Assembly: GCF_010730355.1 (NCBI RefSeq)
Contig: NZ_AP022576.1
Coordinates: forward strand, 1,736,001 to 1,800,000
Direction of reading: 5' to 3'
DNA: 64,000 nucleotides
Source: Mycobacterium florentinum
GTDB lineage: Bacteria; Actinomycetota; Actinomycetes; Mycobacteriales; Mycobacteriaceae
Shown here: positions 46,407 to 64,000 of the stretch, in pieces
Position numbering within the stretch: the stretch's first letter is position 1
Layout of the letters: each line of letters opens with the position of its first letter
The notes under the pieces: generated by a model
Told to the model about the DNA's origin: nothing
Databases searched by the model: none
What the model saw: only the letters and a program-made list of their open reading frames with translations
Translations under genes and position numbers: made by a program

Positions 46407-47579
46407 ATGGCAGGCAAGGCGCTGGCAGCAATCGAGCATGCCCTGGCGCTGGCCGGGTCCATGACGTGGGAAATCCTGTGGGCGCTGATCCTGGGCTTCG
46501 CCCTGTCCGCGGTGGTGCAGGCGGTGGTGCGGCGCTCCACGATCGTGGCGTTGCTCGGAGACGACCGGCCGCGCACCCTGGCGATCGCCGCGGGCCTGGG
46601 GGCGGCCTCCTCGTCGTGCTCGTACGCCGCGGTCGCCCTGGCGCGGTCGCTGTTCCGCAAGGGTGCCCATTTCACCGCCGCCATGGCATTCGAGATCGGT
46701 TCGACCAACCTCGTGGTCGAGTTGGGCATCATCTTGGCGCTGCTGATGGGTTGGCAGTTCACCGCCGCGGAGTTCGTCGGCGGCCCGCTGATGATCGTCA
46801 TCCTGGCTGTCTTGTTCCGGCTGTTCGTTCGTGCCCGGCTCGTCGGCGCCGCGCGCGAGCAGGCCGAGCGGGGACTCGCCGGCTCGATGGAGGGTCATGC
46901 CGCGATGGACATGTCCATCAAACGCGAGGGCTCGTTCTGGCAGCGGCTCATCTCGGCCGAGGGCTTCACGTCGGTTTCGCATGTGTTTGTCATGGAATGG
47001 CTGGCGATCCTGCGCGATCTGGTGCTGGGTCTGTTGATCGCCGGCGCGATCGCGGCGTGGGTACCCGAAACCTTCTGGCGGGGCTTCTTCTTGGCCGACG
47101 ACCCCGGCTGGGCGGCAGTGTGGGGACCGATCGTCGGGCCGGTCGTGGCGATCGTGTCCTTCGTCTGCTCGATCGGCAACGTGCCGCTGGCCGCGGTGCT
47201 GTGGAACGGGGGCATCAGCTTCGGCGGCGTGATCGCGTTCATCTACGCCGACCTGTTGATCCTGCCGATCTTGAACATCTACCGGAAGTATTACGGCACC
47301 CGGATGATGCTGGCATTGCTCGGCACTTTCTACGCCTCGATGGTCGCCGCCGGCTACCTCGTCGAATTAATTTTCGGCACAACGAATCTCATTCCAACCC
47401 AGCGCAATGCCACGGTGATGGAAGCATCGATCTCGTGGAACTACACCACGTGGCTCAATATCGTGTTTCTGGTTGTCGCGGTGCTGCTGGTCGTGCGATT
47501 CGTCACGTCCGGGGGCATGCCGATGCTACGCATGATGGGCGGCTCCCCCGAGGCCTCAGACGGCCACCATCACCAATAA
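46407..47579 (+). CDS. Predicted permease, ArsP_1/DUF318 family
   Basis: A membrane protein of 390 residues with about eight hydrophobic spans. The family signature is GAASSSCSYAAVALARSLFRKGA (about residues 70-92), corresponding to the Cys-containing motif of ArsP-type permeases, some of which export organic arsenicals. A second conserved stretch is SIGNVPLAAVLWNGGISFGG. The central cytosolic loop is His/Met-containing (GHAAMDMSIKREG) and the tail ends HHHQ, both possible metal ligands. I chose ATG 46407 because GGAGAGG lies 9 bases upstream; an in-frame ATG at 46296 has no such site. It stands alone between two lipid loci and converges with pfa3, 7 bp apart. A link to lipid export is not shown. 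Confidence 0.82.
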   Translation: MAGKALAAIEHALALAGSMTWEILWALILGFALSAVVQAVVRRSTIVALLGDDRPRTLAIAAGLGAASSSCSYAAVALARSLFRKGAHFTAAMAFEIGSTNLVVELGIILALLMGWQFTAAEFVGGPLMIVILAVLFRLFVRARLVGAAREQAERGLAGSMEGHAAMDMSIKREGSFWQRLISAEGFTSVSHVFVMEWLAILRDLVLGLLIAGAIAAWVPETFWRGFFLADDPGWAAVWGPIVGPVVAIVSFVCSIGNVPLAAVLWNGGISFGGVIAFIYADLLILPILNIYRKYYGTRMMLALLGTFYASMVAAGYLVELIFGTTNLIPTQRNATVMEASISWNYTTWLNIVFLVVAVLLVVRFVTSGGMPMLRMMGGSPEASDGHHHQ

Positions 47580-47586
47580 CGCCCGC

Positions 47587-50500
47587 CTAGCCGGCGCTCG
47601 CAGCATTGCGCGGTTGGGTTGATCGGACCGCCGACCATTGATCGCTGCCGATCATGTCGCGCCAGCGCATCGCAAGCGCGTCCAGGGCGTCCTCGATGCA
47701 CGCCCATACCGACTCGAGGGGCGACGCGCCCGGGGCCGCGGCCGCAATTCGGTTCTCCACGGCCTGGTTTGGCGGATTCGGCGCATCGCCGAACGGCGCG
47801 AGCGCGTTGATCGCGTCGATGACGCGGCGTCGTCGGTGCGCGTACGGCGAGGCGCTCAGCTCGTCGGGCATGATCGGCGTGCCGAAGATATAGTCCTGCG
47901 CGGCATGGCGATAGGGCACCTCGAGCTTGTGTCCCACCGGCTCCTGCGGCAGCCCCCCGGCGAAGTACACCGGGACGATCGGCAGCGACGTCTCGATCGC
48001 CAAATCCAGCAACGTGGAGGTGAGTCGCTCGACGCGCTGACCGGAGTGGACATGCCGAGTTCCGTCGGCGTGCACCAACGTTGACACCCCGCGGGCCTCG
48101 ACATCGCTCTTGATCTCGTCAACCAGTTCGAGGAACTGTTGCGGGTTCTGCTGATCGAAGTATCGGATGGTGCACAGCTGTCGGCCCGCCACGACGTCGA
48201 GAAGCCGCAAAAGCTCACCAATCCACCGGTTTTCATGTTTGGCATGGGCGATCGGCACCACCTGCGTGCCGGTCAGCCAGGACGCGATCGTGGTGCCCAA
48301 CAGCGATTCGATCTGCACCTGGTGATTGCCCAGCAGTAAAACCGGGTGGCCCCGAATCGCCGCCATCGCCGGTGGGTCCGCGACGATGACGTGCCGGACG
48401 TAGCGCGACAGCAGCGCCCCGTGGAGAACATCGCCGAACCCGTCCGGCTGCATGCCGAGCTTGCCGGACCACCAGTCGCGCACCGGTCGCCAATCCGTCT
48501 GCAACGACGCGCTGGCCCGGCACACCCGCTGACGCGATTGATCGATCTCGACGCGGATGCGCTCCAGCGGCAGCGCCGGACAGCTCACCTGCCCATCGGC
48601 GACCCGAACCTGTGCGGGGTGTATCGCGTTATGGGCGGCATCGGCGACCGCTTCCTTGGTCGCGATGTCGACCAGCAACGAATCCCCTTGGCTGTCGGTG
48701 CGGTACACCGCGTGCAAGGTGCCTTTGAACCAGTCCAGCGTTGCCGCGCGCACCGAATCGAGGGTGACGACCCCGTGACCTTGCCGCTCGCTCAGCGACA
48801 TCGCGGGCACGGCCCGCCGCTCGGCCAGAAACGCGCGTCGCTTCAAGCCCCCGGCTTGGGCGAGAGGTCCCTTAGACAACAGGATTTCGACGAGGCGGAG
48901 GTGGGCCCACGGCTTGCCCGCAACGCTCAGCCATAGATCGATGATCGGCATGCGGCGATCGTCGTCGTCGAATCCTGCGAACCGGGCCTGGACCTCCACG
49001 GTCCCCTCGGTTGGGGCGTCACTGTAGAACCGGGCCGAGACGACACGACTCGGAAATGCGACGGTCGGGTCCGCCGCGTCCGAATACGACTCGACGGCGC
49101 AACTATCCGAGGTCCATACGCTCATCGCGGCATGCGGGACGATGTGCAGCGCGCCGTCGAGCAGTCCCGGCTGCAGCACGCCCGCCGGAACCTTGCACCG
49201 CTGCACCGCAAGCACCCCCGACGACCCGTTGCGGCCGATCCGGGCGCCGTCCAGCAGCGTTGCGAATGCGGGTCCGTGGAACACCGCGCTGGTGTCGTAC
49301 GGCGTGGCGAAGGGCACCGCGCCGGTCAGCGCGGCCGGGGTTGCCGGCCCGTCGGCGTACCGGTCCGCGGTGACGATGGTGGCGTGGGCGTGAGTTTCCC
49401 AGCGCGACAACGCCGCCTTCGGTGCGTCTCGCCACACCTCGAGCCGGCCCTCGAAACGTCCGGGCCCCGCGGGCTCGACGATCACCCGCAGCTGCTTGGG
49501 CGAATCGACGATGATCCAGCGCACCACCCGCAGGTCGGTGACTTCGACCACGTTGGCCGCGCCCGCGGCACGGCTCGCCGCCTGCGCGAAGAGGTCGAGC
49601 ACGGACATCATTGGCAGAGAAGGGATTACGTACGTCGGGCAATGATCGGTGATCCAGGTGTCGCTGGCGGGATCGATGGTCGTCTCCACCACCGTGGCCG
49701 ACGTCGTCGAAGCCGGTGCCGTCGAGGCGGGTGCCGTGGTTGCCGGCGCCGTCGAGGACAGGCCGATCCCCACTTGAGTCTGGCCCTGCGGCGCATTTCG
49801 CGTGATGCGCATACCCAGGTTGGTCGCGGTGTAGATCCGTTTGCCGTCCACCCACAGCGAGGCGTCGGCGACGGCCAGAATGCCATCGTCGTCGCGCGCG
49901 ATGCGAGTGATCTCCAGTTCCGAGGAGATCTGCTTGTTCGTCGGCACGATCTGCCCGCGATACCGCCACGTGATCGCATCGTTGAGCGCCACCGGCTCGA
50001 AACGCGCCGAAGGTCCCGCCTGGGCGCCGAGGCCGTGATCGAGCATCGCGAATTGCAGGAGTTGAAGCATCATCTCGATGCCCAGCGAGCCCGGCTGGAC
50101 CGGGTCTTGGCAGAAGTGGGCCTTGAAGTACCACTCCGCCGGGTCGACGTCCTTGACGGCACGCCACCGCCCGAGACCGGCCTCGCCGTCGGTGAGCCAG
50201 CGTCCCGTCACGCGGTCGATCATCAACAGCATCGGATCCGCCAACCGCGGTCCGGGACCGAAGAACTCGTGCGGCCGCGTGCCCAGGTCGACGACGGGCG
50301 CCTCGCATGGGCGCTGCGCAATGGCGCGCTGCTCGTCGGTGACCGGAAGACCCACCTGCTGTTGCAACGCTTCGCGGCCGAAGTATCCGAACACCGTGTC
50401 AAAGGTGTAGACGGGCCCGTCGTCGGCGTTGATCTCGCCCTCGAAAGTCACGATGATGGTTCCGCCCGCCTGGGCGATGCTCTTCAGAACGACTTTGGTC

Positions 50501-53500
50501 CGCAAGGTCCCGGTCGACGGCGTGACCTCCCGGTGCTGTCGGCCCGTTCCGTCGAGGTTGCGGAAGTAGAGATCCCGTTCGCTGTTCAGCGGACAGCCGA
50601 CGTAGCTGGCCAGCCAGCCGCACGGTTGCAACGCGACCTCCATCAGCACCGCGTTGGGCATCGTCGGTGCCCCGTTCACCGCGAAATACCAAGCATCGGT
50701 GGGCACTTCGTACTCGACGACGACTTCTGCACCGGCCTTCACGACGCCGATCTCGCCGACCAACTCGGTGACCCTGGACATGAAGTGGTAAGGCGGCCCG
50801 GGCAGCCTGGCCACCTTGCGATGCGAATCGAACTTTTCGAAGAGCGGGCCAAAAGCCAACGACGGCTTGGCGATCGCGCTTGCCAGCATCGCTTGGTAGT
50901 CGAACCGGAACCCGTCGACCTCGGCGACGGGTTTGGGTTCGACATAGCCCTGCAGTTCCCTGACCCCCAGATCCATCGGCCAACCGGGCGACAGCTTCAG
51001 GCCCATCCGGCGGCAGTGGAACGCCGGCAGGCCGTCGACGGTGCAGAGCAGGTCGGCGAACAGCGTCGGCTCAGGCCCGGCGAATACCTCACGCACGAAC
51101 ACCTCGTAGACCAGTTCGCGGGACTGCGGCGTCACCTGGCCGCGGCACGACAATTTGTAGGTCTCGAAGGGCACGGGTTCGAAGCGCCAGCCGTCGCACT
51201 CCAGCGTCATGCCCAGCGCGGTCATGTAGATCGCCATGGTCTGCATGGTCGCTTCGAACATGAGCGTGCCCGGCATACACGGGTCGTTCTTGAAATGCCC
51301 TGCAAAGTACCATTTTTCGGGATCAACGTGCGCGACTGCACGCAGGTAGCCGCGGCCCCACGGGCCACCCGACAAATCCAGCTGGGTTACCTCGTCGACG
51401 AACAGCAAGGCGCCGCTCGAGATGCACGGCGTGCGCGTGTGGCTGGCGGCGCGTTCGAACCCAGGACCAAATGTGCGCCAGATCTCGCCGGCCGCCATCG
51501 CCTCCAGCTCGGCGCGAGGCAACGAGGTCCGCGACGTCTGCGACGGCGTTGCCTCCATCGGACCGCTGACGGTCTCATCCTCGGGACGCCAAAGGATTCC
51601 GCCCGAGGCCGCCAACTCCTCATCGGAGAAGAAGCCGGCCTGGCCGTTGCGCATCGACATCCGCTCGACACCGTCGATCGTGCAGTCGTAGTGAAAGAAG
51701 AACATGCGGATGTCGCCTTGACGGGCGTGGCCGTCGACGTGGATGTCGAATCGTAGGGTGTCGCCGATCTCGGGGAGGCCGCCCAGGTAGGTGACCTCAC
51801 AGCCCAGCAGACGGTATACCCGATCGCCCTTGTTCGCGAAGTCGGCGCCCATCCACGAGATGAGCATGAGATCGGCCTGCCCCGCCTCGATCATGATCCC
51901 GGCGGGCATCCGGCCCTGAGCCAGATACCACGCATCGGCGGTGACATCGGTTTCGGTCCATAGCGTTCCGGTGCCGTGCTTTCCCGGCTCGGCGTCGATG
52001 CCCAGCAGCCGATCCGCCAGCAGCAGCGGCGGTTCCGGCATCCGCACCTGTCGAAGGTAGTTGTCTTGCACCGCGAATGCCTCGCCGTAAATGTCGGAGA
52101 TCTTGCCCGACGCGTGCACCCGCAGGCCGTCCTTGTCGAGCGTGAGGCCCACGGGCGCGCGCTTGGCGGTCGGCGCCGGAACCCGCTTGTCGGCGGGCCG
52201 GTCCGGTTGCACCGCCTTGCAGGCACCCGCAAGCGGCAGCTTGTCGATCACATCGATCACATTGTGAGCCAACGGCTTCGAGGCCGTGTCGCCGTTGTCC
52301 GCATGACTTGTGGAGTCGTTGTGGTCAGCGCCATTGCGGCCGCTCCCCCGACCGGCGGCCGCCGGAGCGTCGATGTCGTAGGCAACCGCCAGCGGTTCCG
52401 GTGGCGTCTGCGCGGCCAGGACCGCACCCAGCGGCACCCGCCCCGACGCCTCTTCGGCCTTGGGCAGAGCCGGGGGAACCGGGAGATGTGTTGCCATACG
52501 CTGCTCCCCTTTACTGACGATCAGGTGTGAATTCTGGTCAAGCACAACGTTGCTCGGTAGCAGAACGTCGGGAAGATGACCGGGAAAACGCAGCCACATC
52601 GACTTTCCCGATCCTGACCCGGGATCGGTCCGGTGTGCGTCGAGCACACCGGCATCGTGTTGTTTGACCGGCGGTGGCACCAGCACGATGTGTTGCTCCT
52701 GGCCGGCCAGCCCGTTGAGCGCGATGACGACCTCTCGCTGCGGCGACGACCACGGCGTGCCGTCGGGCCGTACCCCGAGAAATCCGTACAGCGCACCGGC
52801 GGCGACGTGCAACAGTCCGGACGCGGCGTGCGCGTGGCCGAGTAGCGGCGAGAGGTTCACGGCGCCGGGTGCGGTGCCCAACCGAAGGCAATCGGCGTGC
52901 GGCCGCGGGCCCGCGGATAAAGTGGCAAGAACCGTATCGTCGTCACGACGCGCATCGTCGGCGCGTTTGAGTACCAGTACGACGGCGGCATCGCCGGATA
53001 CCTGCTCGCCGGATCCGAGTAGCACCCGGGCCGCCGCTTCGTGCACGGGTTCGCAACTGAGGTCCACCGCACCCACCACGGCCGCGTCGATCTCACCTCG
53101 CCGCAATGCGCGGGCCGCCATCTCCAACGCCGTGGTGCCCGAAAGCTCCTCGCGGGATACCGTAAAACTCGGCCCGCGAAGGTCGAACTGGCTGTTCAAC
53201 CGGTTGGCGACAATATTCGGCATGGCGCCCACCACGCCGGCTGCGGTCCACCCCTGCACGACCGCGTCGCGCGTCGTCGCCAGCAGATCCGGGTCATCGA
53301 TCTCGCCGGCCAGCCGCCACCGCACGCCGAGTCGCGTCACCTCGGCGTCGCAACCCATCCCGACGATGACGCTGGTCCGGTCCGGTGGCAGATCTTTGAT
53401 CAACGCACCGACATTCATCGCCGCTCCGAGAAGGGCGATTTGCTGGGGCAAGGTCTGCTTGAGATCGGTTGGGGGGAAACGTGTCTGCGTCAAGTCGAGG

Positions 53501-54996
53501 CAAACTTCGGCCATCCGCGCTCTGACGACACCGTCGTCGTCGCGACGGGCAATCGACCGGTTATTCACCAGATGATCTGCCACCGAAAGGGTTTCGTGCC
53601 CATCGCCCACCAGCAGGCCGAGCCCCACGATTGCGATGTCGCTCTCGGCTTCGGTCGAAATCACCGGCCATCGCGATGGGGCCTCCGGCTGGTTGGCAGG
53701 CCCGACCCATTCTTCGAGCAGCAGATGGGCGTTGTTGCCCCCGAAGCCGAAGTTGTTGATCGCGGCGCGTCGCGGTCCGACGCAATGCCACGGTTCGGCG
53801 TCGGTGAGCAGACGGAACGGGGAGTCGGCGATGAACGGCAGCGGATCGTCGGCGTGCAGCGTCGGGGGACGGACCCGCGCACGCATCGCCGCGAGCACCT
53901 TGATGGCTCCCGCGGCACCGGATGCCGTGATGGAGTGCCCGAGATTGGATTTCAGTGATCCGATCGGCACGTTGGCCATTCCGGCGAAGATGCGCGCCAT
54001 GCTCATCAGTTCGGTCAGGTCGCCACGTGCGGTTCCGGTGGCATGGCACTCGATCAAGGAGATGTCTTGCGGCTCGAGTTCGGCCATCTCGTAGGCGAGG
54101 CGCATCGCGCGTTCTTGCCCCTCTTGCGAGGGGACCAGCAGACCGCGGCCGCGGCCGTCGTTGCTGAGGCCGACCGCCCTGATGACGCCCAGTATGTGGC
54201 TGCCATCGGCGATTGCGTCTTCCAGCCTCCTGAGCACCAGAATCGCCGCGCCTTCGGCCGGCACCAGTCCGTCCGCGTCCTGATGGAACGGGCGCGACCT
54301 TCCGGAACGGCTCAGCGCCTGTAGCGCGCTGAAGCCGACGTGCAAGAGCAGATCGCTGGCTCCGTTGACGCCTCCCGCCAGCATCACATCCGCGGTGCGG
54401 TCGTGCAGCCGGTCGCACGCCAGCTTGATGGCATACAGGGAAGAGGCGCACGCGGCGTCGAGGGCAGTCGCACCTCCCGTGAGGCCCAGCGCGTTTGAGA
54501 TGAGGTGGGCGGGCAGACCGGACATGAATCGGTTGCGCCAGTCGATGCGGTGTTCCGTTGCGCGCCAGACCTTTTCGGCCAGATCTGTCATGGTCTTCGT
54601 CGGATAGCTCAAGTTGCCGAGGACGACCCCGGCCGAGCCGGGGACTTCGCCGGCACGCCAGCCCGCGCAGTCGACGGCCTGCCGGGCCGCCTCGACGGCC
54701 CAGAGGTAGAGCGGGTCGAGACCGTCGAGCTCGGCAGTGTCGAGCAGAAGACCCCGTGGGGCGAAATCCCGTTCGAAGCCCCGCACATATCCGCCGCGGT
54801 CGGACCAGGTGTGGTCCAGGAATGCCGAGTTCTTCGGGTCGCGCAGGATGTGCTCCGCGGACACGCCCCAATAGCCCGGCTCCGCAGAGCCGAGCACGTC
54901 GCGGCCTTCACGCACCGTGTCCCACAACCCATCGGGACTCAGCCCGCCCGGAAGGACACAGCCTTGGCCGACGATCGCGATGGGTTCAAATTTCAA
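47587..54996 (-). CDS. pfa3: PUFA synthase subunit Pfa3/PfaC-like: KS-CLF-DH-DH-DH-like-acyltransferase
   Basis: About 2469 residues. Domains: KS about 1-420 (Cys183 in LDAACASSL); chain-length factor about 450-780, where the Cys is replaced (SREELSG); two FabA-type double hot-dog dehydratases about 1000-1330 and 1400-1730, with active His in GHFKNDPCMPG and AHFCQDPVQPG; a further PKS-DH-like fold about 1780-2030 (DHCPTYVIP); and a lysophosphatidic-acid-type acyltransferase about 2190-2400 (NHQVQIE, HADGTRH, PIVPVYFAGG). I chose TTG 54996 with GGAG 5 bases upstream: translation then starts right at the KS and 29 bp after the pfa2 stop. ATG 55107 would overlap pfa2 by 82 bp. The acyltransferase motif I has Glu in place of Asp. 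Confidence 0.88.
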   Translation of the reverse strand: MKFEPIAIVGQGCVLPGGLSPDGLWDTVREGRDVLGSAEPGYWGVSAEHILRDPKNSAFLDHTWSDRGGYVRGFERDFAPRGLLLDTAELDGLDPLYLWAVEAARQAVDCAGWRAGEVPGSAGVVLGNLSYPTKTMTDLAEKVWRATEHRIDWRNRFMSGLPAHLISNALGLTGGATALDAACASSLYAIKLACDRLHDRTADVMLAGGVNGASDLLLHVGFSALQALSRSGRSRPFHQDADGLVPAEGAAILVLRRLEDAIADGSHILGVIRAVGLSNDGRGRGLLVPSQEGQERAMRLAYEMAELEPQDISLIECHATGTARGDLTELMSMARIFAGMANVPIGSLKSNLGHSITASGAAGAIKVLAAMRARVRPPTLHADDPLPFIADSPFRLLTDAEPWHCVGPRRAAINNFGFGGNNAHLLLEEWVGPANQPEAPSRWPVISTEAESDIAIVGLGLLVGDGHETLSVADHLVNNRSIARRDDDGVVRARMAEVCLDLTQTRFPPTDLKQTLPQQIALLGAAMNVGALIKDLPPDRTSVIVGMGCDAEVTRLGVRWRLAGEIDDPDLLATTRDAVVQGWTAAGVVGAMPNIVANRLNSQFDLRGPSFTVSREELSGTTALEMAARALRRGEIDAAVVGAVDLSCEPVHEAAARVLLGSGEQVSGDAAVVLVLKRADDARRDDDTVLATLSAGPRPHADCLRLGTAPGAVNLSPLLGHAHAASGLLHVAAGALYGFLGVRPDGTPWSSPQREVVIALNGLAGQEQHIVLVPPPVKQHDAGVLDAHRTDPGSGSGKSMWLRFPGHLPDVLLPSNVVLDQNSHLIVSKGEQRMATHLPVPPALPKAEEASGRVPLGAVLAAQTPPEPLAVAYDIDAPAAAGRGSGRNGADHNDSTSHADNGDTASKPLAHNVIDVIDKLPLAGACKAVQPDRPADKRVPAPTAKRAPVGLTLDKDGLRVHASGKISDIYGEAFAVQDNYLRQVRMPEPPLLLADRLLGIDAEPGKHGTGTLWTETDVTADAWYLAQGRMPAGIMIEAGQADLMLISWMGADFANKGDRVYRLLGCEVTYLGGLPEIGDTLRFDIHVDGHARQGDIRMFFFHYDCTIDGVERMSMRNGQAGFFSDEELAASGGILWRPEDETVSGPMEATPSQTSRTSLPRAELEAMAAGEIWRTFGPGFERAASHTRTPCISSGALLFVDEVTQLDLSGGPWGRGYLRAVAHVDPEKWYFAGHFKNDPCMPGTLMFEATMQTMAIYMTALGMTLECDGWRFEPVPFETYKLSCRGQVTPQSRELVYEVFVREVFAGPEPTLFADLLCTVDGLPAFHCRRMGLKLSPGWPMDLGVRELQGYVEPKPVAEVDGFRFDYQAMLASAIAKPSLAFGPLFEKFDSHRKVARLPGPPYHFMSRVTELVGEIGVVKAGAEVVVEYEVPTDAWYFAVNGAPTMPNAVLMEVALQPCGWLASYVGCPLNSERDLYFRNLDGTGRQHREVTPSTGTLRTKVVLKSIAQAGGTIIVTFEGEINADDGPVYTFDTVFGYFGREALQQQVGLPVTDEQRAIAQRPCEAPVVDLGTRPHEFFGPGPRLADPMLLMIDRVTGRWLTDGEAGLGRWRAVKDVDPAEWYFKAHFCQDPVQPGSLGIEMMLQLLQFAMLDHGLGAQAGPSARFEPVALNDAITWRYRGQIVPTNKQISSELEITRIARDDDGILAVADASLWVDGKRIYTATNLGMRITRNAPQGQTQVGIGLSSTAPATTAPASTAPASTTSATVVETTIDPASDTWITDHCPTYVIPSLPMMSVLDLFAQAASRAAGAANVVEVTDLRVVRWIIVDSPKQLRVIVEPAGPGRFEGRLEVWRDAPKAALSRWETHAHATIVTADRYADGPATPAALTGAVPFATPYDTSAVFHGPAFATLLDGARIGRNGSSGVLAVQRCKVPAGVLQPGLLDGALHIVPHAAMSVWTSDSCAVESYSDAADPTVAFPSRVVSARFYSDAPTEGTVEVQARFAGFDDDDRRMPIIDLWLSVAGKPWAHLRLVEILLSKGPLAQAGGLKRRAFLAERRAVPAMSLSERQGHGVVTLDSVRAATLDWFKGTLHAVYRTDSQGDSLLVDIATKEAVADAAHNAIHPAQVRVADGQVSCPALPLERIRVEIDQSRQRVCRASASLQTDWRPVRDWWSGKLGMQPDGFGDVLHGALLSRYVRHVIVADPPAMAAIRGHPVLLLGNHQVQIESLLGTTIASWLTGTQVVPIAHAKHENRWIGELLRLLDVVAGRQLCTIRYFDQQNPQQFLELVDEIKSDVEARGVSTLVHADGTRHVHSGQRVERLTSTLLDLAIETSLPIVPVYFAGGLPQEPVGHKLEVPYRHAAQDYIFGTPIMPDELSASPYAHRRRRVIDAINALAPFGDAPNPPNQAVENRIAAAAPGASPLESVWACIEDALDALAMRWRDMIGSDQWSAVRSTQPRNAASAG

Positions 54997-55025
54997 GACG
55001 ACTCCGCAGCATCGTTCAAGTGAGT

Positions 55026-58000
55026 TCAGCTGCCGTATGGGTACATCTCGAGTCCCTTGATGCTGGCAACCAACAGGTTGTCCGCGTCGACGAGATCCAG
55101 ATCGCACACCGCGCGGCTGTTCTTGGCCACGCCGTTGGAGAGCACGCAGCGCAACCCATCCCCCAGCGCACCGGCGCGGTAACGCACGATCTCGCCCACC
55201 CGCAGTGGCAGCACCTTGGCCCCGAGCTGTTCATAGCTCCATACCAATGCCGCTTGCAGGCAGCCGTCGAGCGCGGCCGGATCGGTCGCCCAGCCTTCGC
55301 CCGGCCAGCCCACCACCGTCAGCCCGTACAGGGGGGCCGTGGCGGCCGACCTTTGGCAGTCGACGCTCTCGAGGACCTGGAATGCTGGACCGTGGAAGAG
55401 CGCGCCGTTGGTGTAGCAGGTGTCGCGGTTGAGCTGCCGACCGCCGATGGTCGCGCTCGCGGGCGCCGGTATCGACTTTGTGCCCGAGCCCAATTCGACG
55501 GTCGCGGAATAGTGCGCGGTCGATCCGGAAGCGTCGGATAACGTGCACGCCAGCCGATGTGGGTGATCTTGCACCGACGCGCAACGCACCAGCATTGCAT
55601 CGCCGCGTTGCTCGATGTCGTGCAGTGTCACGCCGCGCAGCACTCGAAGGTCGAGAATCCGATCCGCGCGCTGGCCGGGGCGGCAGGCTTCGGCCATCCG
55701 CACAAACCATTCCAGCGCCTGCACGATGGGCAGGACCACGTTGCCCTGGATGCGATGGTCGAGCAGATATGGCTGGCGAGCCGCCTGGGCCACCACCCGT
55801 GCGACCCTGCCCTCGGCCGGCACCGGATGGGTTGGCACGCCTGCCAATACGCCGTCTCCGAGAATCACCTCGGGACTGGCGGTCTGCGCGTCCAGCACGT
55901 CGCAGACGAATGCCCGGGCGCCGTCCGCCAGCGGGATCAACGAGATTCCCCGGGACTCGAACATCGCCTTGAGGCCGGGTGTCACCATCCCGGAATCCCA
56001 AGGGCCCCAGCCTAATGCGCGGACAAGACAGCCAGGACCGCGGCGGGCCTGTTCGGACAGGGCGACCTTGTTGAGGATCTCGTTGGCCATGGCGTAGTCG
56101 CTTTGGCCGACGTTGCCGCTGCGGGCCGCCACCGACGAGAACAGGCAGACCAGCTTCAGCGCATCGGTGGCGGTCGCATCGAGCAAGGCGCACAGGCCGC
56201 CGACCTTGGTCTCGAAGACGCGGTCATATCCATCCAGGGTCTTCTTGTGCAAAGGCGCATCCGCCAATACACCGGCTCCATGGACCAACCCGGTCACGGG
56301 CCCGAAGTCGGCGCGCACACCGTCGAGCAGCGCGCCGAGTTGAGACGCGTCGCGCACGTCGGCCGTGGCGTAGCGGACCCGTGAGCCGGCAGCGGTCAGC
56401 GCGGCCAGGGTGGCGCGCACCTCACGATCGGCCAGGATGCGCTGCACCTGTTGTTCCAGCTGTTTCGGTGTGAGCTTAAGTCCTTGCGCTGCAGCGCTTG
56501 TCAGCAACGCTCGCTTGAGCTCGGCGTCGGTTGTCAGCCCTTGCGCGGCCGGTGGCTCATCGCCGAGTTCGGTGCGCCCGATGAGCACGAAGCTGGCCCG
56601 TGTCTGTTCAGCCAGGGCGATCACCGAGGCCGCCGTCACCCCGCGGCCACCGCCCGACACGACAATGACGTCACGCTGGTCGATGCGACGAGTGTGCGTG
56701 GTCACCGGCGTCGCGTCGGCGACGATCGTGACCCGTCCGTGCGTGCTACTCAGGCCGACTTCCAGTTCGGCTCCGCCCGCGAGTATTTCGTGCGCGATGT
56801 GCTCGGCAATGGCGATCGGGGTCAGCTGCCCGGCCGCGATATCGATGGCCTTGACTTGCGCTTTCGGCCATTCCTGTGCGGCAGTTTTGGCCAGGGCGGC
56901 GATGCCGCCGGCCCATGCGCGCGAGCCGGACTCGGTGAGCAGACCGAAGGTGCCGCCGGTGTCCTGGACGGTGACGAAGACGCCGCCCTGCTCCTCGAAT
57001 CGCGTGGCGACGCGTTGCGCATCGGCAAAGACCATACGGTTGAGGGCCAGCGTGTCGGCGCGGCTGGTTGTGCGTTGCAGGCCGCCGAGATGGATCACGG
57101 CCTCGGCGTTGGCATTCGGCTCGGTCACGATCGTCGCGCTGATGCCGTGGGTGCGCAGGATGGCGGCCAGGGCCTCGCCGACGCCGGATGAAGTTGCGAC
57201 GATCTCCACGTTGGCGGCGGTGTACAGGCCCGGCATTGCCATCCCGCTTGCCGGAGCAGCAACTGCGCGCACCGCGTGGCGGGCGATCGCTGCTCCGGCT
57301 AACTCAAAAGGGAGGCGGTCACCCGCCACGGTGCCGTTGGGGATGGCCGGGATCGGGGGTGGCGCGTGCATGGGTGGGGCGCCGTTGTGGGCGACGGGGG
57401 CCATCGACGACTGCAGGTAATCAACAATCTCCTGCAACGTCCCCAACGCCGCCATCGCACCCGTCTCCACATCAGGCAACGCCGGAACCCGCTCCTGCAC
57501 CGCCGACAAAATCTCCACCCGCTTAATCGAATCGATGCCCAAATCCGCCTCTAACGCCATCGACAAATCAAGCATCTCAACCGGATAACCCGTCTTATCC
57601 GCCACCACATCCAACATCTGCCCCACCAAATCCACACCCACCCCGGCGGCAGCAGGCGCCGCCGGGACCGGAGCAGCAGCAGGCGCGGCCGCAGCAGGAG
57701 CAGGCGTCCCGTTACGCGCGACCGGAGCCAGCAACGACTGCAGGTAATCAACAATCTCCTGCAACGTCCCCAACGCCGCCATCGCACCCGTCTCCACATC
57801 AGGCAACGCCGGAACCCGCTCCTGCACCGCCGACAAAATCTCCACCCGCTTAATCGAATCGATGCCCAAATCCGCCTCTAACGCCATCGACAAATCAAGC
57901 ATCTCAACCGGATAACCCGTCTTATCCGCCACCACATCCAACATCTGCCCCACCAAATCCACACCCACCCCGGCGGCAGCAGGCGCCGCCGGAGCCGGAG

Positions 58001-61000
58001 CAGCAGCAGGCGCGGCCGCAGCAGGAGCAGGCGTCCCGTTACGCGCGACCGGAGCCAGCAACGACTGCAGGTAATCAACAATCTCCTGCAACGTCCCCAA
58101 CGCCGCCATCGCACCCGTCTCCACATCAGGCAACGCCGGAACCCGCTCCTGCACCGCCGACAAAATCTCCACCCGCTTAATCGAATCGATGCCCAAATCC
58201 GCCTCTAACGCCATCGACAAATCAAGCATCTCAACCGGATAACCCGTCTTATCCGCCACCACATCCAACATCTGCCCCACCAAATCCACACCCACCCCGG
58301 CGGCAGCAGGCGCCGCCGGAGCCGGAGGAGCAGCAGGCGCCGCCGGGACCGGTGCAGCAGCAGGCGCCGCCGGAGCCGGTGCAGCAGCAGGCGGGGCCGG
58401 AGCCGGTGCAGGCGTCCCGTTATGCGGCGCGGTCGGTGCCACGGGAGCAGCCGATGTCCCGTTGTGCACAACCGGGGCAGCCAGCACCAGCGGAGTTCCG
58501 TTGGCAATTGCGGGCGATGCGGCCACAGCCGACGGGACCACAAGACCTTGCAAAACGCGCTGTAGCCGGTCGAACGCGTCGCGCAATGTTCCTACCGTCG
58601 CGATCATCTCCGTCACCGCGTCAGCACTTATCGCGGGCACGGCCGCGGGCGCCGCGACGGGTGGCGAAGCCGCCGAAGTCACCGTCGCGGGTGGAGGAAG
58701 CACAGCTGTCGTGGATGCGCCGACGTGACCATGACCATTGCCGTTGCTGGCGGCATGGCCATTGAGCGCGGCGGGCGCCGGCATGACCGTCGGGGCAACC
58801 GGAACCGGCGGCGGTGGTTGCACAACCGGCGCCGTGCCGTTCACGTGAGCTACGGGGGTAATTGGTTCAGATGGCATGAATTTGGACTCCGATTCGGTCC
58901 TGTGTCCGTTGGTGCGGTCACTGCGGTCGAGAGTTGTTTCGAGATCAGAGGGCCGCCGCACCGGCTCGTCGCTTATTGGCGGCCTTCCATAGTTGGATCC
59001 GTTGATCTTCAGGGTCAGCTTCGGCTGCTCGCGGTTCCGCGGATCGTCGCCTACGCGATAGTCGGCCCACAGGCCCTCGAAATTCATCGGGACGCCGGCG
59101 GCCACGAGCTGGGCCAATCCGATCCACAGCGATCGAATGCCGTTCTTGCCCTTGGCATCCAGGGACACCGCGGAATGCTCCTCGCCGGCGAGACACTTGC
59201 CGACGAGATTTGTCAGCACGCCGCCGGGACCAACCTCGATGAACGTGCGTGCGCCGGCCCGCCACATCGCCTGAATCTGTTCGACGAACCGCACCGGCTG
59301 AGCAATCTGGTTGGCCAGCGTGGTCCGCATTTGTTGAGCGTCGCCGACGTACGGCTGCGCTGTCGCGTTGGCGTAGACGGGCACCTCGGGCACCCCGAAC
59401 GCGATATCGGCGAGGAAGTACCCGAACGGAATCGCTGCGGGGCTGACGATGTCGGAATGGAACGCCGTCGCGACATCCAGGCGTCGCGCGTTGATGCCCG
59501 CCGCCGCGAATCGTTGCGCCGCATGTTCGATGGCGGTGCTGTTCCCGGACAGCACAGCCTGATTGGGCGCATTGTGGTTGGCGATGACCACCGGGAGCCC
59601 CCACTCCCCGATCAGTTGGCGGACCTGGTCGACGGGCGCGGTCACCGCGCACATCGCTCCGTCGCCGTTGGTGGCGGCTTCGGCCATCAACTGACCACGC
59701 TTGCGCGCGATTTGGAGGGCGACCTCGCCGCTGAAAACACCGGCGGCACATAGGGCGGTGACTTCACCGAAGCTGTGTCCACCGACGGCAACGGGTGCGA
59801 TACCAAGAGCACGGATCACCGAGAGCAGGCTCAGGCTGTGCGCACCAATACCTGGTTGCGCCCATTCGGTTTTCGTCAGCTCGGTGGACTGCAGTGCACG
59901 CTGTTCGTCGGTGAACGCCGTCTTCGGCCAGACAACCTCGTGCAGGTCGCGATCGGCGTTCAACCGGTCGGCGCGGGCACATTCCCACGGCGACAATGCC
60001 GGCTCGTGCAGCTGCGGCAGGTCCGCGCCCATGCCGACGTACTGGCTGCCCTGGCCCGGAAACAACAACGCGACCGGCCCGGGCCGTTGCGCCGAATAGA
60101 AGTAGCCCCTGGGTGAGGCGAACGAAAGCGGAACATCCGCCGCACCGAGCTTCGCTGCGAGTTCGTTCAGCATCGTCTGCAAGCCCGAAACACTGTCGGC
60201 GACGACGGCCAGGCGGTGGGGTTGCGCGGCGTTGTAGACGGCTTGCGTGCTGCGCGCGATCCAGCCGAGCATGTCAGGGCTATCGACCAATGATGCGCAG
60301 AGATGAGCGGCTTGCTCGGAAAGCGCTCCCGCAGAAGGCGCGCCGAGCACTACCAGTTCGGAATCCCAGGACCGGTATCGCCATGCCCGCTTTCCGGCGC
60401 CCGTGTACTCCTCGACGGCGACGTGAAAGTTGGTGCCGCCGAAGCCAAACGAGCTGACAGACGCCCGTCGCGGGACACCTTTGTCGGCCATCCACGGCTT
60501 GGCTTGCGTGGACAGGTAGAACGGCGACTGCTCGATCTCGAGGGCGGGATTCGGCCGATCGATCTTGATGGTCGGCGGCAAGGCCTTGTGATGAAGCGCC
60601 ATCACCGCCTTGAAGAGGCCGCACGCCCCCGCCGCGCCCTTGGTGTGCCCGACCTGAGACTTGACCGAGCCGAGCGCGCACCATTGCCGATCCGCTCGCC
60701 CCGATTCGTTGAAGACCTCGCGCAACGCGGCGAACTCGGCGGCGTCTCCGGCCTTGGTACCGGTGCCGTGCGCCTCGACGAGCCCCACCGTTTCCGGGCC
60801 GTAGCCCGCCGCGGCGTAGGCGCGACGGAGGGCTTTCGCCTGACCCGCCGGACTTGGCGCGTAGATGCTCTTCGCCCGGCCATCCGACGAAGTGCCGATG
60901 CCGCGGATCACCGCGTAGATCCGGTCGCCGTCGCGCTCGGCGTCGTCGAGACGCTTGAGCGCGAACATCGACAGCCCCTCGCCGAGCATCGTGCCGTCCG

Positions 61001-61793
61001 ATTGGTCGGAGAAGGGACGGCAGTCGCCGCTGGCCGACAGCGCGGTGACCTTCGCGAAGCACATGTACATGAAGATGTCGTTGAAGGCGTCGACGCCGCC
61101 GGCGATCACCATGTCGGATTCACCGAGATAGAGCTCGTGCAAGCCCACCTCAAGAGCGGCCAGCGAGCTGGCGCACGCCGCGTCGATCACACAGTTGGTG
61201 CCGCCCAGATCGAAGCGGTTCGCGATGCGCCCGGCGATGACATTGCCGAGCAGTCCGGGGAAGGTGTTCTCCTGCCACGGCGCGTAGTTGGCCGTCACCC
61301 GTTCGCTGAACGCGGCGAGTTCGCTTTCCGAGAGACCGGCGGCCCGGAGTCCGCGCTCCCAGACCGGCCGGTGCAGACGACCGCTGATGTAGGTGATCAA
61401 CTCCGTGCCGCCGGAGGCGCCGAGTACGACGCTGATGCGCTCGCGATCAATGTGAGAAAAATCACCACCCGCGGCGTCCTCTAATACTTGCCGCGCGACT
61501 CTTAGTGCTAGCAGTTGGGCGGTATCAATTGCGGGCATAGCGTTCGGCGGAATGCCGAAATCCATTGGCGAAAAGTCGACATCAGGCAAGAATCCACCGC
61601 GACGCGCGTATACCTTGTCGGGCATATGCGGATCGGGGTGGTAGTAGTCGTCAATGCGCCAGTGCGACTCGGGGACCTCGGAGAACAGGTCGACGCCTCC
61701 GACGATGTTGCGCCAGAAGCGCTCGGCTTCGGGAGACCCGGGAAACAGCGCGCTTACACCGACAACCGCAACGGGGGGGTGCTTTGATGCCAT
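55026..61793 (-). CDS. pfa2: PUFA synthase subunit Pfa2/PfaA-like: KS-AT-ACP-ACP-ACP-KR-DH
   Basis: 2255 residues, start ATG 61793 with AAGGTG 5 bases upstream. Domains: KS about 5-460 (Cys207 in DAACASSL, His342, His383); malonyl-type AT about 570-880 (Ser674 in GGHSFGE); a Pro/Ala-rich linker; three ACPs at about 1160-1240, 1270-1350 and 1380-1460, each with the PUFA-synthase motif LGIDSIKRVEIL; KR about 1700-1960 (SGGGRGVT, YAMANE); and a C-terminal DH-like fold about 2005-2255 (DHRIQGNVVLP). This is the core iterative chain builder of PUFA-type synthases. It needs a phosphopantetheinyl transferase, which is not encoded here. Pfa3 follows after 29 bp; pfaD lies 0.9 kb upstream. Confidence 0.92.
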   Translation of the reverse strand: MASKHPPVAVVGVSALFPGSPEAERFWRNIVGGVDLFSEVPESHWRIDDYYHPDPHMPDKVYARRGGFLPDVDFSPMDFGIPPNAMPAIDTAQLLALRVARQVLEDAAGGDFSHIDRERISVVLGASGGTELITYISGRLHRPVWERGLRAAGLSESELAAFSERVTANYAPWQENTFPGLLGNVIAGRIANRFDLGGTNCVIDAACASSLAALEVGLHELYLGESDMVIAGGVDAFNDIFMYMCFAKVTALSASGDCRPFSDQSDGTMLGEGLSMFALKRLDDAERDGDRIYAVIRGIGTSSDGRAKSIYAPSPAGQAKALRRAYAAAGYGPETVGLVEAHGTGTKAGDAAEFAALREVFNESGRADRQWCALGSVKSQVGHTKGAAGACGLFKAVMALHHKALPPTIKIDRPNPALEIEQSPFYLSTQAKPWMADKGVPRRASVSSFGFGGTNFHVAVEEYTGAGKRAWRYRSWDSELVVLGAPSAGALSEQAAHLCASLVDSPDMLGWIARSTQAVYNAAQPHRLAVVADSVSGLQTMLNELAAKLGAADVPLSFASPRGYFYSAQRPGPVALLFPGQGSQYVGMGADLPQLHEPALSPWECARADRLNADRDLHEVVWPKTAFTDEQRALQSTELTKTEWAQPGIGAHSLSLLSVIRALGIAPVAVGGHSFGEVTALCAAGVFSGEVALQIARKRGQLMAEAATNGDGAMCAVTAPVDQVRQLIGEWGLPVVIANHNAPNQAVLSGNSTAIEHAAQRFAAAGINARRLDVATAFHSDIVSPAAIPFGYFLADIAFGVPEVPVYANATAQPYVGDAQQMRTTLANQIAQPVRFVEQIQAMWRAGARTFIEVGPGGVLTNLVGKCLAGEEHSAVSLDAKGKNGIRSLWIGLAQLVAAGVPMNFEGLWADYRVGDDPRNREQPKLTLKINGSNYGRPPISDEPVRRPSDLETTLDRSDRTNGHRTESESKFMPSEPITPVAHVNGTAPVVQPPPPVPVAPTVMPAPAALNGHAASNGNGHGHVGASTTAVLPPPATVTSAASPPVAAPAAVPAISADAVTEMIATVGTLRDAFDRLQRVLQGLVVPSAVAASPAIANGTPLVLAAPVVHNGTSAAPVAPTAPHNGTPAPAPAPPAAAPAPAAPAAAPVPAAPAAPPAPAAPAAAGVGVDLVGQMLDVVADKTGYPVEMLDLSMALEADLGIDSIKRVEILSAVQERVPALPDVETGAMAALGTLQEIVDYLQSLLAPVARNGTPAPAAAAPAAAPAPAAPAAAGVGVDLVGQMLDVVADKTGYPVEMLDLSMALEADLGIDSIKRVEILSAVQERVPALPDVETGAMAALGTLQEIVDYLQSLLAPVARNGTPAPAAAAPAAAPVPAAPAAAGVGVDLVGQMLDVVADKTGYPVEMLDLSMALEADLGIDSIKRVEILSAVQERVPALPDVETGAMAALGTLQEIVDYLQSSMAPVAHNGAPPMHAPPPIPAIPNGTVAGDRLPFELAGAAIARHAVRAVAAPASGMAMPGLYTAANVEIVATSSGVGEALAAILRTHGISATIVTEPNANAEAVIHLGGLQRTTSRADTLALNRMVFADAQRVATRFEEQGGVFVTVQDTGGTFGLLTESGSRAWAGGIAALAKTAAQEWPKAQVKAIDIAAGQLTPIAIAEHIAHEILAGGAELEVGLSSTHGRVTIVADATPVTTHTRRIDQRDVIVVSGGGRGVTAASVIALAEQTRASFVLIGRTELGDEPPAAQGLTTDAELKRALLTSAAAQGLKLTPKQLEQQVQRILADREVRATLAALTAAGSRVRYATADVRDASQLGALLDGVRADFGPVTGLVHGAGVLADAPLHKKTLDGYDRVFETKVGGLCALLDATATDALKLVCLFSSVAARSGNVGQSDYAMANEILNKVALSEQARRGPGCLVRALGWGPWDSGMVTPGLKAMFESRGISLIPLADGARAFVCDVLDAQTASPEVILGDGVLAGVPTHPVPAEGRVARVVAQAARQPYLLDHRIQGNVVLPIVQALEWFVRMAEACRPGQRADRILDLRVLRGVTLHDIEQRGDAMLVRCASVQDHPHRLACTLSDASGSTAHYSATVELGSGTKSIPAPASATIGGRQLNRDTCYTNGALFHGPAFQVLESVDCQRSAATAPLYGLTVVGWPGEGWATDPAALDGCLQAALVWSYEQLGAKVLPLRVGEIVRYRAGALGDGLRCVLSNGVAKNSRAVCDLDLVDADNLLVASIKGLEMYPYGS
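57408..58325 (-). repeat. Three tandem 327-bp repeats encoding the Pfa2 ACPs
   Basis: The period is exactly 327 bp (the same string begins at 57411, 57738 and 58065). The ACP parts look identical base for base, and the Ala/Pro linkers differ by a few bases. Each copy encodes one ACP of about 80 residues plus a 25-residue linker. Inside the block the coding strand uses mostly G- or T-ending codons (TTG, ATT, GTT, GAT, GGG), while the flanks prefer C-ending ones. Confidence 0.9.
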
Positions 61794-62702
61794 CGATCAC
61801 CTTTGCATTGGCTAGACGAGCAACATCGAGTGTTTACTTGCGGCACACCGAAGACTGATCGTCCAGGTTTTGCTGCATTGACCTGCACCCCCGGGGCAGG
61901 CCTAGCGCTCGCGGGGACCATATCAGAACCCCGCCTCTTGTACTGACGAACTGTCAATACCGCTTGGCCGAATTTCATGGCACGAAGTGACCAACGGTTT
62001 CCTGGGTTGACATAGACGGTTCCTTTGTGATGCAGCTTTGTCTCCCAGCAACTTTCTTTATGGAAGGCCGCGCTCGCCGACGTCGCGGAACTGCTCGCCG
62101 GTCGGAGCTTGCTGCCCAGCTAGAAGACCTTGCGGCGACGGCCGCGCCCCACCCGGTGACTGGCCGGCCAGCTATGCATCCCGAGGCGAGGAACGCCAAC
62201 ATAACCTCGGCCGAACCGCGGCGCGGGGTTTTATTCATCGGTCGTCGAACCGTTCGTTTGCGACGCTGGGAAGCGCATCGTTGGGGATCGCACCGGCTTC
62301 ACACGAGGCCATTGCAAATAACGCACGGTGCAGTTACTCGCGGGTAACTGGACGCGGATTTGATTTTGGCCACGTTCTCCCGATTTCGACGGAAATCCGA
62401 CGGGAGAATTTGCCGAACTCAAGCCATTAGGCAACTGACCGATATGTCACATCAATTTGACAATGCCGCATTCCCACGCATTTCCTCGTCACCCTTAGCT
62501 CGAGCACGACGCAAGGCGCCCCGCGGGGTTTTATGCGCGCTCCCAAACCTGATCTTGTTTACCGAATTCTCGGTCCGATCTGCACCAACCCCACGTCGGC
62601 GGCCCACGATTCCGCACCGCCGCCGAAGCGGTCGAGCGACGGCAAGGATCAGGAGAGGGCGCCGCTACTCACGGGTAGCTCCTTGCCCGAAACGGAAACG
62701 TT
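61794..62702. other. Intergenic region pfaD / pfa2
   Basis: About 910 bp, more AT-rich than its surroundings, without a convincing gene. It contains a strong hairpin (62375-62408), two copies of GCGGGGTTTTAT (about 62224-62235 and 62523-62534), a TGAC-GTCA spaced inverted repeat (61944-61956), and a 12-codon minus-strand ORF (MSTQETVGHFVP, 62013 to 61975) with AAGGAA 6 bases before its ATG. Together they suggest that pfa2-pfa3 has its own promoter and leader rather than simple read-through from pfaD. Confidence 0.4.
62375..62408 (-). terminator. Strong hairpin between pfaD and pfa2
   Basis: The outer stem TTCTCCCG/CGGGAGAA (8 bp, perfect) and inner stem ATTTC/GAAAT (5 bp) enclose a 4-base loop, with a 4-base bulge (CCGA) on one side. 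It lies about 300 bases past the pfaD stop. No U-run follows on the minus strand, so it may be a U-less mycobacterial terminator, an mRNA stability element or a regulatory structure. Confidence 0.4.
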
Positions 62703-64000
62703 TTACAAAGACAGCGGGCGCGGAATGTAGTTGAACGCATCCGCCGGAACGGGCACTCCGCATTTGCGAGCCTGGTGTGCCCGGCTGATGTGGGTGGCCC
62801 CCTCAAGCAAATTCAGCGCGACTTGGTCGACCTTCCGGTCTTCCGCGTGCTCCAGGTAGCTACCCGCCACCCAGCTGTTGAAGGCTCCCATCGATGGGCC
62901 ACACCAGATCTGGTAGTCCAGCACCCGATCGGGTTGCCCGTCGATCGCCCACCGGCTTGATTTGCCGAGGTACCAGCGGAACACCAGGCCCATCTGGTAC
63001 TTCGAGTCGCGAGTCGCCAGTTCGAGCACCTCGGGGTCGCGCTGCTCCCAGTACTGATGCGTTTCGGCCCAGACCTCCCCGACGCTTTTGCCGAGGATCT
63101 TTTCCAGCTCCGCACCGTGCTTGTCCACGACGGCACCGAGGTTCGGGTTGGCCGCGTACCACTCGTAGAGCTTCCTCGCCCGTGGGCCGAACATCGCGCC
63201 ACGTTTGAGTACCTGCAGATTCACACCCATCTCGAACATGTCGGAAGCCGGGGCCATCATCACGTCGGCCACTCCGGCCTTGGCGAGCATGCCACGGGCG
63301 TGCGGGGAAAGGCCCGACTCGATGCACGCCTGATTGATCGAGCCGGTCAACACATAGGCAGCACCCATCGCGAATGCTCCGGCCACGGATTGCGGTGTGC
63401 CGAGACCCCCGGCGGCGCCTACCCGGATCCGGCAGGCCAGGCCGTGCTGCTGCGCCAGCTTGTCGCGCAGCAACACGATTTCGGAGAAAAGCGCCGGCAG
63501 CGGTCGGTTGTCGGTGTGCCCTCCGCTGTCGGCCTCGACCGTGATGTCTTCGGCCACCGGGACGTGCCGGGCGAGCTCGGCTTCCCGTTCGGTCAGCTTG
63601 CCGGATGCGACGAGCGCCGAAACCAACGCCGCGGGTGCGGGTTCCATGAACATGCGGGCGACCTCGGGACGCGAGATCTTCGCCATCACGTGGTTGTTGC
63701 GAACGATCGCGCCGGCCGGGTCGGTCGACAAGCCCGACAGGGCGTAGTGCACGACCGCCGGGGTGAGCTTCATGAACGCCGAGGCCTCGACGACGCGGAC
63801 GCCGCGTTCGATGAACAGCTCGGCGACCCGTCCCTCGAGTGCGACCTCGTTGGGTGAATGGATCAGGTTCGCGCCCCAGGCCAGGGCCCTGCCCGCCAGC
63901 CTCGCCTGAATATCGGCCAGCCCGCGTTCGACGGCGGCGTACGAGAGGCCGCCCGCGCCGAAGAAACCGAGCATGCCGGCCTCGGCAACGGCCACCACCA
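62703..64000 (-). CDS. pfaD: PUFA synthase enoyl reductase PfaD/Pfa1 (N-terminus cut by window edge)
   Basis: The FMN-dependent enoyl reductase of PUFA synthases, related to nitronate monooxygenase, with a TIM-barrel fold. The frame is open to the right edge, leaving about 432 residues; the family usually has about 530-550, so roughly 100 N-terminal residues are outside. The Met near 63998 (MVAVAEAGMLGFFGAGGLS) is internal to the family and not the real start. The flavin-phosphate region RIRVGAAGGLGTPQSVAGAF, followed by GAAYVLTGSINQACIESG, is typical of PfaD. The C-terminus YIPRPLSL is complete. It reduces enoyl intermediates made by Pfa2 and Pfa3. It is first in the pfaD-pfa2-pfa3 order. 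Confidence 0.93.
   Translation of the reverse strand, partial: VVAVAEAGMLGFFGAGGLSYAAVERGLADIQARLAGRALAWGANLIHSPNEVALEGRVAELFIERGVRVVEASAFMKLTPAVVHYALSGLSTDPAGAIVRNNHVMAKISRPEVARMFMEPAPAALVSALVASGKLTEREAELARHVPVAEDITVEADSGGHTDNRPLPALFSEIVLLRDKLAQQHGLACRIRVGAAGGLGTPQSVAGAFAMGAAYVLTGSINQACIESGLSPHARGMLAKAGVADVMMAPASDMFEMGVNLQVLKRGAMFGPRARKLYEWYAANPNLGAVVDKHGAELEKILGKSVGEVWAETHQYWEQRDPEVLELATRDSKYQMGLVFRWYLGKSSRWAIDGQPDRVLDYQIWCGPSMGAFNSWVAGSYLEHAEDRKVDQVALNLLEGATHISRAHQARKCGVPVPADAFNYIPRPLSL

Follow-up and report, generated by a model that had tools for sequence, protein, structure and literature searches.

The closed 6.22-Mb genome of Mycobacterium florentinum harbours a three-gene cassette, pfaD, pfa2 and pfa3, that is predicted to encode a polyunsaturated fatty acid (PUFA) synthase. 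The cassette lies at one end of the window analysed here, a stretch of 64,000 nucleotides corresponding to positions 1736001-1800000 of the genome, and is flanked by genes of the phthiocerol dimycocerosate (PDIM) type. The cassette is real, conserved and whole in this genome, and by its domains it is a PUFA synthase that lacks an internal acyltransferase (AT) and bears a C-terminal acyltransferase of the 1-acylglycerol-3-phosphate acyltransferase (AGPAT) type. With a probability of about 0.7, the locus encodes a PUFA synthase of the iterative type I, complete in itself and of Type L or myxobacterial gene order, that would deliver a polyunsaturated chain to a glycerolipid-type acceptor, independently of the PDIM-type genes. 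Gene order, domains, catalytic motifs, the predicted acyltransferase fold, conservation, purifying selection and the insertion site are seen in the sequences; that the product is polyunsaturated, its chain length and its acceptor are inferred.

The three genes are collinear on the minus strand and are transcribed in the order pfaD, pfa2, pfa3. The first two genes and the acyl carrier protein (ACP) array map as follows:

62703 to 64361 (62703 to 64000 within the window), minus strand: pfaD, enoyl reductase, 552 aa in all, running 361 bases past the window edge.
55026 to 61793, minus strand: pfa2, PfaA homologue, 2255 aa, with the Pfam domain order ketosynthase (KS), malonyl acyltransferase (MAT), three ACPs, ketoreductase (KR) and dehydratase (DH).
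57391 to 58345, minus strand: the three tandem ACPs of Pfa2, a repeat of period 327 bp in 2.9 copies with 98% matches (TRF).

In a profile search PfaD scores 592.8 bits against TIGR02814 (cut-off 449.25) and Pfa2 scores 1613.6 bits against the PfaA model TIGR02813 (cut-off 1010.1). Both lie far above curated cut-offs and are therefore not chance matches. The best sequence matches of PfaD in the PDB are the PfaD chains 6lkc and 4yx6, and the DH of Pfa2 is of the polyketide synthase (PKS) type by Pfam. The cores of the ACPs, 75 codons each, are identical at the DNA level (0 of 225 positions differ), which suggests recent homogenisation of the array. Across the related loci the ACP count by motif ranges from 0 to 5, the low counts being likely due to split frames and short-read collapse. 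The cluster contains no PfaB gene; no search for one was made elsewhere in the genome.

The database entry for Pfa3, the PfaC homologue, comprises 2469 aa, which puts its probable start close to 54996 and leaves about 30 bases between pfa2 and pfa3. Its domain order is KS, chain length factor (CLF), FabA-type DHs, PKS-type DH and acyltransferase:

47587 to 54996, minus strand: pfa3, 2469 aa; the longest open reading frame (ORF) reaches 55107.
53674 to 54987, minus strand: KS, over the Pfam cut-off, Cys-His-His motifs kept, followed by the CLF domain.
49825 to 52035 (approximate), minus strand: FabA-type hot-dog DH region, PF07977 in three stretches, 299.6 bits, over the cut-off.
49078 to 49707 (approximate), minus strand: PKS-type DH, PF21089 PKS_DH_N at 25.3 bits, below the cut-off of 27, with a conserved His motif.
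47590 to 48549, minus strand: C-terminal AGPAT-like acyltransferase with an NHQVQIES motif and HADGTR at motif III.

The His motifs of the FabA-type DHs read GHFKNDPCMPG and AHFCQDPVQPG. In an alignment of the window Pfa3 and 21 further Pfa3 proteins, the Cys/His/His residues of the KS, the CLF region, the His of the PKS-type DH and the NHQVxxES motif are all kept, as are four hot-dog motifs, two of them with His. The end domain has a predicted PlsC/GPAT fold. Over its length the protein is collinear, at 46.8% identity, with P0136, a myxobacterial-type Pfa3 that is equated with a published Yarrowia construct from its listed name only. Pfam finds no AT domain (PF00698) in the window Pfa3, and the stretch between the CLF and the first DH spans 201 residues compared with 438 in P0136. 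The original prediction had proposed a three-gene PUFA synthase in the order pfaD-pfa2-pfa3, without PfaB and with an acyltransferase fused to the end of the third gene. The profile scores and the collinear genes bear out the first point, the cluster indeed holds no PfaB, and the fused end domain is of the AGPAT type.

Gene order and the lack of PfaB in the cluster are shared with the myxobacterial (Type L) Pfa1-Pfa2-Pfa3 systems of Aetherobacter, Minicystis and Sorangium, as are a Pfa2 of the order KS-MAT-ACPn-KR-DH and a Pfa3 of the order KS-CLF-DH-DH with a C-terminal AGPAT. The Pfa3 of Minicystis rosea likewise contains a PKS-type DH (PMC6731297). Aetherobacter and Minicystis possess an AT between CLF and DH, whereas the window Pfa3 and S. 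cellulosum So ce56 do not (PMC8436480, PMC4882568); this AT is a feature of a subtype and not of the whole family. The S. cellulosum Pfa3 P0195 has an AT by Pfam, so Sorangium itself varies. The AGPAT-fused architecture was called a myxobacteria-only feature in 2016 (PMC4882568). The Type L clusters of the actinobacteria Streptomyces coelicolor and Nakamurella described by Shulse and Allen comprise pfaD, pfaA and a fused pfaBC in the same order, but their third protein is given as KS-CLF-DH2-AT, unlike the window Pfa3, and the accessible part of that paper lists no Mycobacterium cluster among the Type L clusters (PMC3098273). By regular expression, neither an NHQ..E nor a GTR motif is present in the relatives from Streptomyces, Micromonospora and Saccharopolyspora (two sequences) included in the tree below.

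A survey of 396 Mycobacterium genomes yielded 69 with a PfaD over the TIGR02814 cut-off. Class A comprises 27 loci with 77-100% identity to the window PfaD, the window included, and class A' comprises four loci at 68-70%, of which two share their genome with a class A locus. Class B, at 51-54% identity, is found in 39 of the 396 genomes, and the last two of the 69 are G031 (40% identity) and G226 (split PfaD). Since close homologues of classes A and A' occur in 29 of the 396 genomes, the window's included, the locus is no one-off. In G235 and three other genomes PfaD shares 95% identity with that of the window, and identity outside Mycobacterium does not exceed 58% (298 genomes of the order, genus included). 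Named loci with a Pfa3 of the same clade are those of M. simiae, M. paraense, M. ahvazicum and Mycolicibacter nonchromogenicus, arupensis and engbaekii; the M. ahvazicum AFP003 locus is L178, from a species of the M. simiae complex. Protein names among the best 120 of 3508 matches add M. shigaense, M. heidelbergense, M. riyadhense, M. szulgai and others.

Trees were built with FastTree from Pfa3 only, with class B as the root by choice and with no PfaC of eicosapentaenoic (EPA) or docosahexaenoic acid (DHA) synthases. Classes A and A' form one clade in the tree of 216 sequences, with a support of 0.98, or 1.0 together with P0053. The clade persists in a tree of 88 sequences that includes the named loci, where its nearest relatives are unnamed metagenomic sequences; Sorangium and P0136 fall in a different part of the same family, as do a few actinobacterial members devoid of the acyltransferase motifs. 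The latter tree includes 41 of 80 loci retained from 512 relatives and leaves out L148, L149, L169, L197, L198 and L210; in L169 (Mycolicibacter icosiumassiliensis) the frame is shorter than its match. With class B chosen as outgroup, the window Pfa3 falls into one family with myxobacterial-type Pfa3 and Sorangium, which agrees with the likeness to myxobacterial PUFA synthases in gene order and acyltransferase fusion originally put forward; given that choice and the absence of EPA/DHA PfaC, the single family rests partly on where the root was placed.

In the proposed mechanism Pfa2 would load malonyl units onto its three ACPs and build the fatty acyl chain jointly with the reductase PfaD and with Pfa3, which would contribute its KS-CLF and its FabA-type dehydratase/isomerases. 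Cis double bonds would be introduced as the chain grows, with no need for oxygen or desaturases. As the cluster has no PfaB and Pfa3 no internal AT, it is probably the end acyltransferase of Pfa3 that would terminate the chain, by passing it on to an acceptor resembling lysophosphatidate to give a glycerolipid. Linoleic acid is reported as the only PUFA of S. cellulosum (PMC4882568), and because an AT-less synthase of this species is linked to linoleic acid only, a C18-C20 di- to tetraene may serve as a first guess at the product.

Several observations weigh against this reading. The mycobacterial Pfa3 clade is not placed among Sorangium and P0136, which sit elsewhere in the same family, and with the modest identity to P0136 this means that chain length and unsaturation are not transferable from these systems. 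A PfaD match by itself is no proof of a PUFA synthase, since TIGR02814 is a family model and one of 14 control genomes also exceeds its cut-off (any match in 3 of 14). No gene for a PfaE-type phosphopantetheinyl transferase (PPTase) adjoins the cassette, two ACPS-family genes lying elsewhere in the genome; a separate locus is reported for myxobacteria too. No lipid data were found. The end domain of Pfa3 matches the Pfam Acyltransferase model at 20.5 bits, below the cut-off of 23, and its motif III reads HADGTR where the myxobacterial systems have HVEGTR. Within the mycobacterial clade all 75 sequences lack the motif-III Glu, which is present in 109 of 126 others, counts that are not independent as the same genome appears twice in places (P and A rows). 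A Glu in the EGTR of motif III goes with lysophosphatidate as acceptor, and since most relatives outside the clade have it, its loss means that the acceptor may differ. It is thus conceivable, though doubtful, that the fused acyltransferase has switched acceptor (PatA- or LpxM-like alternatives), so that polyunsaturated chains would enter an undescribed mycobacterial envelope lipid and not ordinary phosphatidic acid.

The cassette could also be a secondary lipid synthase of the non-PUFA kind, in which the same machinery makes a long chain with at most one double bond in the main, destined for a special lipid, and the end domain transfers it to something other than lysophosphatidate. This appears unlikely in view of the FabA-type DH His motifs, the KS/CLF and the PKS-type DH, all conserved with P0136, and the AGPAT-bearing clusters with known products described in PMC4882568 make PUFAs.

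Broken copies likewise count against a working synthase and would fit a silent or vestigial cassette. G076 has its PfaD in three pieces and G226 a split one, and fragments occur in G253 and G004; Pfa2 is spread over two frames in each of G164, G371 and G015, the same is true of Pfa3 in G242, and the Pfa3 P0052 (M. angelicum) is without one DH His motif. G031, a close relative, has no cassette at the site described below (gap 1347 bp). A vestigial cassette is nevertheless highly improbable for M. florentinum, where the frames are whole and the dN/dS values (Nei-Gojobori, window genes against up to 11 relatives) range from 0.063 to 0.152 for PfaD, from 0.111 to 0.179 for Pfa2 (about half of the gene only against G164 and G015) and from 0.139 to 0.222 for Pfa3. 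This overall range of 0.06-0.22 lies over that of the flanking gene pyc (0.061-0.089) but within reach of fadD28 (0.077-0.162) and the permease gene (0.072-0.177). Hence pfa2 and pfa3 are less constrained than pyc yet clearly constrained, and the cassette is under purifying selection. The copies in G076 (L135/L136) and G226 (L134) are decayed, and a partial Mas-like match (65% identity over 22%) is located near that of G076.

The cassette is bordered by a permease gene on one side and by DUF222, coaD-like, rsmD-like and pyc genes on the other, with no nonribosomal peptide synthetase (NRPS) genes adjoining. The features beyond its pfa3 end are:

46296 to 47579, plus strand: ArsP_1-type permease (PF03773, 267.3 bits), left flank of the insertion, adjoining coaD in genomes without the cassette there.
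37516 to 45806, minus strand: mas-like PKS and fadD28-like AMP ligase, the nearest PDIM-type genes, mas being named from length, place and synteny.
11244 to 32336, plus strand: four pps-like PKS genes with PpsA-, C-, D- and E-like domain orders.

We take the pps genes to be such from their domain orders, and coaD, rsmD, mas, pps and the like from Pfam matches, length and synteny. The permease gene occurs in 45 of 148 genomes and shares a contig with coaD in 41. In 35 of these the two are 27-6,837 bp apart and in the other six, all class A carriers, 15,482-18,450 bp; since coaD and the permease gene are close neighbours in the 35 genomes without the cassette there, the cassette is an insertion between them. 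Synonymous divergence of the pfa genes matches that of the flanks against G164 (dS 0.39-0.43 versus 0.34-0.43) and is somewhat higher against G143 (0.72-0.84 versus 0.59-0.61). As the two are similar in close relatives, genomes that carry the cassette here have probably inherited it along with the chromosome. The DUF222 gene (L009:4460-5566, in a numbering where L009:2703-4361 equals window 62703-64361) lies between pfaD and the coaD-like gene in this genome and several relatives and may mark how the insertion arrived.

The original prediction attached significance to the PDIM neighbourhood, and one could imagine that the synthase feeds the adjacent pathway, for example by supplying phthiocerol or mycocerosate-type esters with a starter or an acyl chain; a conserved linkage to mas and fadD28 would then be expected. 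Synteny was compared in 33 regions (27 class A, four class A', G226 and G076). The coaD-like gene flanks the cassette in 15, with the permease opposite in 14 (G361 ends first), and the sequence extends past the permease in 13 (G392 ends within it). Such a role would accord with the mas and fadD28 genes found past the permease in eight of these 13 (G000, G277, G110, G164, G235, G143, G242 and G244), and with G381, where the trio lies elsewhere and pfa3 is followed by a gene resembling FadD28 (55% identity) and by two unannotated ORFs, 897 and 2898 aa long. The other five loci (G017, G058, G327, G285 and G051; about 5 kb or more read in each) have no mas or fadD28 match of at least 45% identity past the permease, PDIM genes elsewhere in these genomes not having been sought; matches were shown from 50% identity in one display and 45% in the other. 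In Mycolicibacter-type and other genomes the trio occupies other sites, and no accessory gene accompanies it to all of them. Moreover, Pfa3 ends in an acyltransferase and offers no loading or condensing partner. Neither a conserved linkage nor a significance of the neighbourhood is supported by these data, and together with the close spacing of coaD and the permease gene where the cassette is missing they make a supply to the PDIM-type pathway very unlikely. The PUFA synthase is probably independent of the PDIM-type genes, their adjacency being positional.

The PDIM-type genes of the window comprise ppsA/C/D/E-like PKSs and drrA-, papA5-, mas- and fadD28-like genes. PapA5 model scores of 546.6 and 513.2 fall below their own cut-offs of 716 and 539, and no PpsB-like KS-AT-KR-ACP gene is present in the locus (9806-32336; no search for PpsB was made elsewhere in the genome). 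A thioesterase gene sits directly upstream of the PpsA-like gene. EmbR-type FHA/BTAD regulators lie near two (G216, G015) of the class A' loci (L131, L132, L127 and L129). The G216 locus has a kinase/STAND protein nearby, those of G216 and G023 adjoin MFS-cNMP-patatin fusion proteins, and G216 also has a WS/DGAT acyltransferase gene; these patatin and WS/DGAT neighbours are compatible with acyl remodelling, for which they are weak evidence.

Phleic acids are known mycobacterial polyenes, and phleic-acid-like chains had been suggested as a product. Their double-bond spacing is unlike that of PUFA synthases. Furthermore, the same genome holds a separate locus of the trehalose polyphleate (TPP)/diacyltrehalose (DAT) type at 5.53-5.55 Mb, away from the pfa genes, where FadD, PE-PPE, MmpL and PapA-like genes accompany a frame of 3699 aa that matches a PKS dehydratase. 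TPP biosynthesis uses Pks, PapA3, FadD23, MmpL10 and PE (PMC10465359). The separate locus speaks against the suggestion, and phleic acids from the pfa cassette are scarcely credible.

Other Pfa-like systems exist in the genus. Class B loci share the PfaD-PfaA-PfaC order with the window, but their third protein, in the one member scanned by Pfam (L139 of G140), has FabA domains without an Acyltransferase match, unlike the window Pfa3, and an AT match of 22.5, below the cut-off of 32.7. By ORF clusters, rmlA-, rmlB- and rmlCD-like genes are nearby in 15 of 17 class B regions (including L041, L042 and L139) and two MmpL genes, with an MmpS-type gene, in 14 of 17, so the class B product may be a rhamnosylated exported lipid. 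Pfa-like genes of mycobacteria are also reported in the clade IV hybrid NRPS-PKS-PUFA clusters (JACS Au 2026) of M. fortunisiensis, Mycolicibacterium sp. CBMA 234 and M. simulans (PMC13291983). These contain NRPS and PKS genes in-cluster (M. simulans without PKS), whereas the window trio has no NRPS neighbour; they are set apart by this description, and their Pfa proteins could belong to class A, A' or B.

Should the cassette function as proposed, as many as 29 of the 396 Mycobacterium species sampled could make polyunsaturated acyl chains without oxygen, candidate producers including M. simiae (split pfa2), M. paraense, M. ahvazicum and Mycolicibacter arupensis. Mycobacterial lipids are well studied, yet the only pfa-like genes of the genus seen in the open-licence literature, mainly in titles and abstracts, belong to NRPS hybrids of three strains (PMC13291983). 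The predicted synthase would thus extend the AGPAT-fused PUFA-synthase architecture from myxobacteria to mycobacteria.

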